Source: a virus
Strand: one strand, 5' to 3'
DNA length: 24,560 nt
Virus record (IMG/VR): IMGVR_UViG_3300022931_000021
Span: 1 to 24,560 of that record
Shown here: positions 9,023 to 17,823 of the stretch, in pieces
Layout of the letters: each line of letters opens with the position of its first letter
How positions within the stretch are numbered: the first letter of the stretch is position 1
Notes under the pieces: generated by a model
Database searches by the model: none
What the model was told of the DNA's origin: nothing
Seen by the model: the letters and a program-made list of their open reading frames with translations, nothing else
Program-made: the position numbers and the translations under genes

Positions 9023-9096
9023 AACTGAACATTCCTGATAAGGAAATGTCCGTGACGACATTAAACTATTTTTTAAACAAAAAAGAGGTAAGAAAT

Positions 9097-9315
9097 ATGT
9101 TAGATAAAATTAACAGTTGGATTAAAGCAGGTACTGAAACAGGTGTAGCATTAATCGCATTCGCGATTGTATTACAGGTAATTTTTGGTGGAACTGTCCC
9201 TTTCGTAGGTGGTGATATTATTGCTACTATTACTGGTATCGTTGCACAACTTGGTGCTCAAGGACTTGTTGGTCTTGTTGCTGCTGCAGTGCTATATAAA
9301 CTTTTCAATAAGTAA
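9097..9315 (+). CDS. Small two-helix membrane protein, possible holin-like
   Basis: A 72-residue hydrophobic protein. The amphipathic start MLDKINSWIKAG is followed by a first membrane segment at about residues 15-31 (TGVALIAFAIVLQVIF) and a Gly-rich turn, FVGGD. A second membrane segment covers about 42-68 (ATITGIVAQLGAQGLVGLVA), and the end is basic (YKLFNK). The start at 9097 is supported by AGAGG eight bases upstream; an in-frame ATG at 9046 would add 17 residues and has a weaker site. It has both early-type and late-type promoters upstream. Size and layout resemble class II holins or other small phage membrane proteins. No homologue is certain, and no endolysin is next to it. Confidence 0.75.
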   Translation: MLDKINSWIKAGTETGVALIAFAIVLQVIFGGTVPFVGGDIIATITGIVAQLGAQGLVGLVAAAVLYKLFNK

Positions 9316-9380
9316 AGTTATATGAAGTTTAGTAGAACTTAAAACTACGAACCACTTTCAGTCAGCGAAGACGTCGGCGT

Positions 9381-9386
9381 TATAAT
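9381..9386 (+). promoter_or_regulatory. Possible promoter of the tmRNA locus (-10 box)
   Basis: TATAAT at 9381-9386 lies in the gap before the tmRNA. The -35 is poor: TTCAGT (9357-9362) is 18 bp upstream. Just after it comes a GATTGGC/GTCGATC hairpin (9397-9414, loop TAAA) and a 12-bp palindrome ACCAAATTTGGT (9425-9436). Readthrough from the promoters near 8998 and 9022 is another possible source of tmRNA precursor. Confidence 0.4.
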
Positions 9387-9524
9387 GGGAGATAAGGATT
9401 GGCTAAAGTCGATCGAGTGTTCCCACCAAATTTGGTAATTCCGTGAGTTATAATCATAGGCATTACCATTTACTCTTTATTGGAGTTATGATGGACACGA
9501 GTTCAATTCTCGTCGACTCCACCA

Positions 9525-9562
9525 ATGAAGGTATTGTTTCCCCCGACAGTATCTTCTTTGAT
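9525..9562 (+). other. tmRNA intervening segment (excised hairpin)
   Basis: This 38-nt stretch separates the CCA end of the acceptor piece from the 5' end of the coding piece. It can fold into an 11-bp stem (GAAGGTATTGT with ACAGTATCTTC, two wobble pairs) with a C-rich loop. In permuted tmRNAs such a segment is removed by tRNA-type processing enzymes, leaving two pieces. Confidence 0.8.
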
Positions 9563-9622
9563 GGGGTTGCTAGGTTTCGACATGGTAACAGAAGGTTTAG
9601 AGTTGTAAGACCCAAAGTAAAC

Positions 9623-9655
9623 GCAAACGCAGATACTTACGCAATCGCAGCCTGA
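9623..9655 (+). other. tmRNA tag reading frame: ANADTYAIAA
   Basis: Codons GCA AAC GCA GAT ACT TAC GCA ATC GCA GCC then TGA, followed at once by TAG. The peptide ANADTYAIAA parallels the E. coli tag ANDENYALAA and ends in the Ala-Ala needed for ClpXP recognition. The preceding bases AAAGTAAAC resemble the region upstream of the resume codon in bacterial tmRNAs. Confidence 0.9.
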
Positions 9656-9720
9656 TAGGCATAGTGTGATTTGAGGATTTAGGCAGGATGAACCTTATAA
9701 CCAAATCATCCTCCAACTTT

Positions 9721-9767
9721 ATTAAGGAACGCATTACATCCTCCCCCACTGTAGTGTGTTCCTTAAT
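9721..9767 (+). other. 18-bp hairpin with CCUCCCCC loop at the end of the tmRNA locus
   Basis: Arms 9721-9738 and 9750-9767 pair over 18 positions, with two wobbles and no mismatch. The 11-nt loop is TCCTCCCCCAC. No T-run follows, so it is not a classic terminator. It may be the 3' part of the tmRNA coding piece, a pseudoknot partner, or a processing end. A smaller hairpin GGATGA/TCATCC (9686-9711) precedes it and is followed by CTCC. Confidence 0.75.
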
Positions 9768-9788
9768 GAGGTTAATACTTCATTATGA

Positions 9789-9823
9789 CGAGTTGCTCAA
9801 TAGAGGACTCATTTTATAACTCG
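9789..9823 (+). promoter_or_regulatory. Leader hairpin(s) upstream of the Hsp20 gene
   Basis: CGAGTT (9789-9794) can pair with AACTCG (9818-9823). The same left arm can instead pair GAGT with ACTC (9807-9810). The two folds exclude each other. AGGAG (9830-9834) and the Hsp20 ATG follow and are outside both stems. A regulatory role is possible but unproven. Confidence 0.3.
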
Positions 9824-9842
9824 CTTAACAGGAGAAAATAAT

Positions 9843-10301
9843 ATGACTACAAGTGCATATAACTTCCCGAGAGATCTATTCTTGGGATTCGATAGTTTGT
9901 TTGATAATCTATATCAATACGAAGGCAATCAACAATCAAAACAACAAACCTACCCACCATATAACGTGGTAAAGAAAGATGATAATCATTATCTAATTGA
10001 GATCGCTGTCGCAGGATTCAAATCAGATGATATTGATTTAACTTTGGAGAAGGGTGTTTTGACAGTGGAAGGAAACAAGAAACTTAAAGAAGAGGCAACT
10101 GAATATATCCGTAAGGGTATTTCTGCTCGTAATTTTAAACGTTCTTTCACTCTTGCTGATACTATCAAAGTGGTTGGTGCTGACGTTGTAGATGGACTAT
10201 TACTAATTGGTCTTGAAAACGTTGTACCAGAAGAAGAAAAACCTAAAACAATTAATCTTGGAGAGTTTACAAAATCTGCTAAGAAGATCTTGTTAGGTTA
10301 A
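9843..10301 (+). CDS. Small heat-shock protein, Hsp20/IbpA type
   Basis: A 152-residue protein with an N-terminal arm (FPRDLFLGFDSLFDNLYQY). The alpha-crystallin domain spans about residues 38-130: YPPYNVVKKDDNHYLIEIAVAGF..DDIDLTLEKGVLTVEG, then RNFKRSFTLADTIKV and DGLLLIGLENVVPEEEKP. Chaperones of this kind hold unfolding proteins in an ATP-independent manner and are common in T4-like marine phages, perhaps for virion assembly. A strong AGGAG lies eight bases before the ATG. It directly follows the tmRNA locus, so two proteostasis functions are side by side; co-transcription is plausible. Confidence 0.93.
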   Translation: MTTSAYNFPRDLFLGFDSLFDNLYQYEGNQQSKQQTYPPYNVVKKDDNHYLIEIAVAGFKSDDIDLTLEKGVLTVEGNKKLKEEATEYIRKGISARNFKRSFTLADTIKVVGADVVDGLLLIGLENVVPEEEKPKTINLGEFTKSAKKILLG

Positions 10302-17429: not shown

Positions 17430-17756
17430 ATGATTGATACTAAAAAAATTGTTGAGTTTGCTAGAGATGAGTTGATGATTTCAAAGAATGTTATTGTTAA
17501 TGTTTATTTAGAAGATCTAACTGAAGACAATGCCCATGGTTGGTGTGTTGCTTCTTCTGACAAACCAGGATTCAATAAGAATGAATATGATATTGAACTT
17601 GAAGAAACTTTAAATGATGATGAGTTGTTAGTTACTTTGTGTCACGAAATGGTTCACGTTAGACAATACTCACAAGGTGAGAGATCTAATGAACGTGAAG
17701 CAATTTCTTTAGAAAACGAATTAGCAGAGAAATATAAAAAGTTTATTGCAGGGTAA
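17430..17756 (+). CDS. Small SprT/M78-like zinc metallopeptidase
   Basis: A 108-residue protein with a clear zinc-peptidase helix, TLCHEMVHVRQY (His72, Glu73, His76). A downstream Glu-rich helix, NEREAISLENELAEKY, could carry the third ligand. It is a minimal, single-domain protease of the gluzincin type; the substrate is unknown. Together with the HExxH/VWA protein it is one of two predicted zinc peptidases, and both use the same promoter class. The last 10 bp of the gene are also the 5' end of a tRNA, so the stop codon lies within the tRNA acceptor region. Confidence 0.8.
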   Translation: MIDTKKIVEFARDELMISKNVIVNVYLEDLTEDNAHGWCVASSDKPGFNKNEYDIELEETLNDDELLVTLCHEMVHVRQYSQGERSNEREAISLENELAEKYKKFIAG

Positions 17757-17823
17757 TTCAGTTCGGTAGAAATCCAGGCTCATAACCTGGAAGTCCTTGG
17801 TTCAAATCCAAGTCCTGCTACCA
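17747..17823 (+). tRNA. tRNA with CAT anticodon (Met, or Ile2 if modified)
   Basis: The acceptor TGCAGGG (17747-17753) faces TCCTGCT (17813-17819), with a T-T mismatch at position 1:72 and a G-T pair at 7:66. The D arm pairs over 3 bp. The anticodon stem CCAGG/CCTGG has loop CTCATAA, giving CAT. The T arm is CTTGG TTCAAAT CCAAG. CCA is encoded at 17821-17823. A 1:72 mismatch is a mark of initiator tRNA, but the three G-C pairs expected in its anticodon stem are not all present (one is A-T). Its first 10 bases overlap the SprT-like gene. It could be elongator Met, initiator Met or lysidine-Ile. Confidence 0.85.

Follow-up and report, generated by a model that had tools for sequence, protein, structure and literature searches.

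A mosaic permuted tmRNA gene between orf89 and hsp20 in the replication cluster of a T4-like phage

The window analysed here, a linear IMG/VR virus record of 24,560 bases (IMGVR_UViG_3300022931_000021), carries a complete circularly permuted tmRNA gene at about 9432-9714 on the plus strand. The gene lies between orf89 and hsp20, beside gp43, and is surrounded by homologues of gp45, gp44, gp62, RegA, gp43, UvsX and gp41 as well as by Hsp20, which bears out the location in a T4-like replication cluster claimed in an earlier note on this DNA. The features of the region are the following:

9046..9315, + strand: orf89, encoding a predicted small membrane protein; adjoins the tmRNA on the upstream side in the phage group
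9353..9424, + strand: pseudoknot-type RNA element between orf89 and the tmRNA (CACTT/GAGTG crossing GGGAG/TTCCC)
9433..9468, + strand: acceptor piece, 5' hairpin GGTAAT...ATTACC (z -3.8 for the fold of 9432-9524)
9472..9524, + strand: acceptor piece (RF04321, ARAGORN, covariation)
9472-9476 (3' strand) with 9599-9603 (5' strand), + strand: P2
9486-9493 with 9581-9588, + strand: D-like stem
9497-9513, + strand: T arm, in the acceptor piece
9514-9520 (CGACTCC) with 9563-9569 (GGGGTTG), + strand: acceptor stem
9525..9562, + strand: spacer between the pieces (fold; covariation)
9563..9603, + strand: 5' part of the coding piece (RF04321, ARAGORN, covariation)
9600..9604, + strand: recombination point (side of the tRNA-like domain, TLD, as in L128/L129; tag side as in L211/L228)
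9604..9622, + strand: 19 nt joining P2 to the resume codon (PK1 model positions deleted)
9623..9658, + strand: tag frame ANADTYAIAA with the stops TGA TAG (ARAGORN)
9673..9714, + strand: post-tag region with the PK2 hairpin (covariation, beta_tmRNA alignment)
9721..9767, + strand: long hairpin, apparently a relic spacer (ATCCTCCCCCACTG core match)
9787..9848, + strand: ROSE-like RNA thermometer before hsp20 (RF02523, 29.8 bits, E 0.00059, below the gathering threshold of 43)
9843..10301, + strand: phage Hsp20 gene, downstream neighbour (PF00011, 5.6e-18; phrog_432)

The earlier note had proposed a covariance-model search as a check, and the Rfam model tmRNA_permuted (RF04321) matches 9472-9655 over its full length (1-213 of 213) with 77.3 bits, above its gathering threshold of 47, and a window-wide E value of 1.6e-13. 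ARAGORN predicts a permuted tmRNA at 9432-9746 with the tag ANADTYAIAA followed by two stops. Its 'Permuted' call and the coordinates 9524 and 9563 confirm that the acceptor piece comes first, then the spacer and then the coding piece; the same two positions, which the earlier note had given as the ends of the pieces, are the predicted mature ends. A nucleotide search for the tmRNA in named phages gave no match at 1e-5, and a loose limit returned chance or tRNA-arm pieces only. With RF04321, ARAGORN and the covariation in 19 relatives described below, the gene is confirmed as a real, phage-borne permuted two-piece tmRNA, far beyond chance.

Every structural part that had been read from the letters (the ACCA end, the pairing of GGGGTTG with CGACTCC, the spacer hairpin, the resume codon and the tag frame) is present. 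ACCA (9521-9524) forms the 3' end of the acceptor piece, at 9524, and the acceptor stem carries the alanine-identity wobble G3.U70 (9565.9518). In the alignment, the 5' hairpin (9433-9468) corresponds to UAUAAUC..GCAU, the conserved 5' part of the betaproteobacterial model beta_tmRNA. The spacer, which RNase P and 3' tRNA processing presumably excise, folds into a hairpin of 11 pairs (9527-9556; -13.1 kcal/mol, z -5.0), and the 5' part of the coding piece contains the GGGGTTG acceptor strand, the GGTTTCGAC D-loop motif, the D-like stem and the 5' strand of P2. The tag frame opens with the resume codon GCA at 9623 and closes with a hydrophobic-Ala-Ala end and a stop. PK2 follows the tag, recognised by its hairpin of seven pairs (9685-9691 with 9706-9712) and by its conserved loop CCTTATAACC, the counterpart of which in beta_tmRNA is CCUUGUUACC. 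As to the extent of 9434-9767 claimed at the outset, the tmRNA itself stands, but 9721-9767 is a separate hairpin outside the mature RNA.

This architecture is maintained across 19 aligned, distinct relatives, for which 500 shuffles and slid pairing partners served as controls. Paired cells make up 94.7%, against 78.0% in the shuffles and 37-55% with slid partners, and both-sided changes occur at 24 of the 42 pairs, a result equalled by none of the 500 shuffles. Compensatory changes uphold all six main helices (acceptor, T, D-like, P2, spacer and PK2): the T stem and P2 retain their pairing through wide sequence change, and both-sided changes affect 6 of the 11 pairs of the spacer hairpin and 4 of the 7 pairs of the PK2 hairpin. 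G3.U70 is invariant (19/19), which for the pattern-found loci is partly built into the search pattern. In the tmRNAs of L231, L280, L285 and L321 (Melnitz), the T-loop GGCAGTA replaces TTCRANT on a fully covarying T stem; this non-canonical loop may have a bearing on SmpB binding.

Two-piece tmRNAs typically retain both PK1 and PK2 (PMC3985003). In the window, PK1 is absent between P2 and the tag, since no more than 19 nt separate P2 from the resume codon, and the PK1 hairpin positions are deleted in the alignments to RF04321 and beta_tmRNA. Measured from the ARAGORN 5' domain, the tag lies 34 nt away in the window and 32-34 nt away in most of its group, compared with 48-61 nt for the majority of viral permuted tmRNAs; the relatives L023, L231 and L285 retain a longer link between P2 and the tag. 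Gaps of 32-37 nt also occur in other viral permuted tmRNAs (L121, L017, L032, L100 and others), which seem to be without PK1 too (in L121, the PK1 model positions are deleted), and suggest repeated PK1 losses. Tests in E. coli found PK1 not to be essential, and a hairpin can substitute for it with tagging unimpaired (PMC3968760, PMC4236655). Natural loss of PK1 thus appears possible in phage two-piece tmRNAs that retain every other helix.

The position of the gene is conserved among the nearest phages. Of 80 RegA loci, the 14 closest to that of the window are at least 89% identical, and in all 13 of these that are long enough to show the region, the tmRNA lies downstream of orf89. The gene after it is hsp20, except in L132-L134, which lack hsp20 and have orf89b there instead. 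One step further out (L138-L140, 84-87% identical), orf89 and hsp20 are both present, and no tmRNA was found. A tmRNA stands just downstream at 42 of 80 orf89 loci, some of them in different gene neighbourhoods; because some phages with orf89 are without it, the tmRNA is dispensable at this wider level. The orf89 product itself had no PHROG, Pfam or named-phage match, and over its 80 loci the gene adjoins the tmRNA in two different gene neighbourhoods.

More broadly, at least 120 viral stretches match the permuted-tmRNA pattern, and the T4-like marine phages Melnitz, Mosig, HTVC008M and AG-345-P14 each carry a two-piece tmRNA. Since phage two-piece tmRNAs were described in the Melnitz paper, which counts 53 among 133 unique phage tmRNAs, mostly marine or aquatic (PMC9004378), the kind is already known, and the view of the earlier note that such a phage copy is unusual holds for its exact place, not for its kind. 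As far as seen, only this clade has the gene between orf89 and hsp20, next to gp43; what is new is this conserved place in the replication cluster, together with the beta-like subtype, the lack of PK1 and the mosaic gene.

Melnitz (MZ577097, a Methylophilales phage) and the pelagimyophages Mosig and HTVC008M are likewise marine T4-like phages (Kyanoviridae) that carry a permuted tmRNA and in which no SmpB was found. Unlike the tmRNA of the window, that of Melnitz, at 46 kb, is far from the phage's own hsp20/clamp region (138-140 kb), and it is directly followed by a glutamine riboswitch (RF01739; L321, 1886-1934, 52.8 bits), in agreement with a published observation, whereas the window has none. 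The tmRNA of mycobacteriophage Bxz1 is of the one-piece form. Mycobacteriophage tmRNAs, such as those of Bxz1 and the TLD-only DS6A (PMC4131195), are also phage-borne, but they belong to actinobacterial phages and have the standard or TLD-only form, whereas the gene of the window is permuted.

Among the subtype models, the betaproteobacterial one fits best, with 63.5 bits against 29.9 for the cyanobacterial and 26.7 for the alphaproteobacterial model. The alignment to beta_tmRNA (RF01850) is full-length, at 9419-9721 (E 1e-18), and includes the 5' part and the PK2 loop, with a score under the gathering threshold of 84, which the relative L023 passes with 100.1 bits; the score for alpha_tmRNA (RF01849) likewise lies below its threshold of 50. 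The alpha model is the best fit for HTVC008M (83.8) and Melnitz (106.7). By fit to the models, the tmRNA of the clade thus appears beta-like, in contrast to the alpha-like tmRNA of pelagimyophages, so that a beta-like type would exist beside the alpha-like one among the two-piece tmRNAs of marine T4-like phages. The earlier note had taken the tmRNA as a pointer to the host group, and the beta-type fit sharpens it into a hint of a betaproteobacterial-lineage host with permuted ssrA. A hint it stays, as Melnitz shows that the types of phage and host tmRNA can disagree; pattern scans of genome contigs for a host ssrA gave no match.

Comparison with the closest sequences reveals that the gene of the window is a mosaic of the genes of two relatives, joined exactly between the tRNA half and the tag half. 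Over the acceptor piece and the 5' part of the TLD, the window matches L128 and L129 at 100% identity, and over the tag at only 58%, whereas with L211 and L228 identity is 100% over 9604-9714 and 68-76% over the TLD. The 60 informative sites among the window, L128 and L211 split 29/6 versus 0/25 at 9600-9604; all six exceptions fall in the spacer, and none of 2000 permutations reaches this split. Nor is the combination in the window the only one: one TLD type is found with the tag ANADTYAIAA in the window and with ANDDYALLAA in L128, the other with ANADTYAIAA in L136 and with ANDDYALLAA in L130, so that each of the two TLD types occurs with each of the two tag types. The functional halves of a phage two-piece tmRNA have thus been swapped as modules. 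Since the permutation sets both TLD halves and P2 together, a single crossover after P2 exchanges the whole TLD with its helices intact, and the permuted order would in this way favour module exchange. It is possible, if not quite an even bet, that these phages freely recombine TLD cassettes and tag/mRNA modules at the P2 junction, the chimeric tmRNAs without PK1 being functional and open to matching with the SmpB, AlaRS or proteases of new hosts. Which parts of a tmRNA must match one another is a question so far tackled with engineered chimeras, and natural ones now bear on it.

The hairpin at 9721-9767 carries a ATCCTCCCCCACTG core, as do the tmRNA spacers of L128, L136 and L208, and looks like the remnant of the spacer of a displaced or second tmRNA copy. 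It was also considered as a terminator of the tmRNA and rejected: it is without a T run and matches the spacer hairpins of relatives.

Collectively, these results make it quite probable that the gene encodes a working, phage-owned two-piece tmRNA that is helped by the SmpB of the host. In the course of events that we infer, a single precursor would be transcribed, host RNase P would cut it at 9562/9563, and 3' tRNA processing would trim it to the CCA at 9524, with loss of the spacer. The acceptor and coding pieces, held together by the acceptor stem, the D-like stem and P2, would be charged at the CCA end by host AlaRS, given the G3.U70 pair, and with host SmpB and EF-Tu the tmRNA would enter ribosomes stalled on broken mRNAs. 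ANADTYAIAA would be added, the ribosome would be released at TGA TAG, and the hydrophobic-Ala-Ala end would mark the product for host proteases. The phage would probably benefit by keeping ribosomes free during degradation of host mRNA, and the tmRNA may replace or compete with host ribosome rescue during shut-off. The gene itself evolves through module exchange.

SmpB was found in none of 17 phage records, in a search that was positive in 10 of 14 control genomes. This lack, together with the missing PK1, would also fit a phage RNA that acted as a decoy or inhibitor, capturing the SmpB of the host and so preventing its trans-translation. Such an action is reported for the TLD-only tmRNA of mycobacteriophage DS6A, which inhibits host tmRNA (PMC11915505, PMC4131195). 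We regard this reading as unlikely, as the resume signal, the tag, the stops and PK2 are all under constraint and a decoy would need none of them. Less likely still is a tag-switching tool, in which an altered tag changes the degradation of stalled products or marks regulatory phage proteins and recombination serves to vary it. Tags do recombine against the TLD and differ among close relatives; nevertheless, L/M/I/V-Ala-Ala ends 60 of the 64 distinct tags of viral permuted tmRNAs, and this conservation of the tag end favours ordinary proteolysis. A functionless passenger recently captured from host ssrA, or host DNA misplaced in a viral contig, is the most improbable of all: decay of copies does occur, as the relic spacer hairpin shows, and the gene is missing from some relatives, but phage core genes flank it on both sides, and this reading is already contradicted by the position shared among many contigs (13/13 close relatives) and by the compensatory changes across diverged relatives. 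The gene also offers testable material for the question of why ribosome rescue should be encoded by lytic phages that have no SmpB of their own.

Two further RNA elements adjoin the gene. The element at 9353-9424 has the general form of an H-type pseudoknot, in which CACTT/GAGTG crosses GG(A/G)AG/CTTCC, accompanied by a covarying hairpin and, in some cases, a variable one. It follows orf89 in 15 distinct sequences (L119, L128, L129, L132, L208-L236 and L246), and three of its four helices show compensatory changes, the fourth being invariant. No Rfam model matched it, and it is also present after orf89 where no tmRNA follows (L246, L217/L261); the readings as a glutamine riboswitch and as part of the tmRNA were therefore rejected. 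TATAAT at 9381 was rejected as a good sigma-70 promoter, being without an acceptable first hexamer.

The leader of hsp20 has the layout of a putative ROSE-like thermometer, with two hairpins, a bulged G and, around the Shine-Dalgarno sequence, ACTYGCTT facing AAGGAG. The same layout recurs in nearly all marine T4-like relatives inspected (L124-L202 and L316-L320), HTVC008M, Mosig and Melnitz included. As no phage thermometer in 18 sources reaches Rfam gathering, the assignment is one of architecture and conservation only; among the papers surveyed, a thermometer is mentioned for prophage SPbeta and none for these marine T4-like phages.

Lastly, a tRNA-Met (CAT) is encoded at 17747-17823 of the window, 8 kb from the tmRNA, and a near-identical tRNA-Met stands directly after the tmRNA in L128 (2256), L129 (3690) and L136 (6149), marking it as a moved gene.
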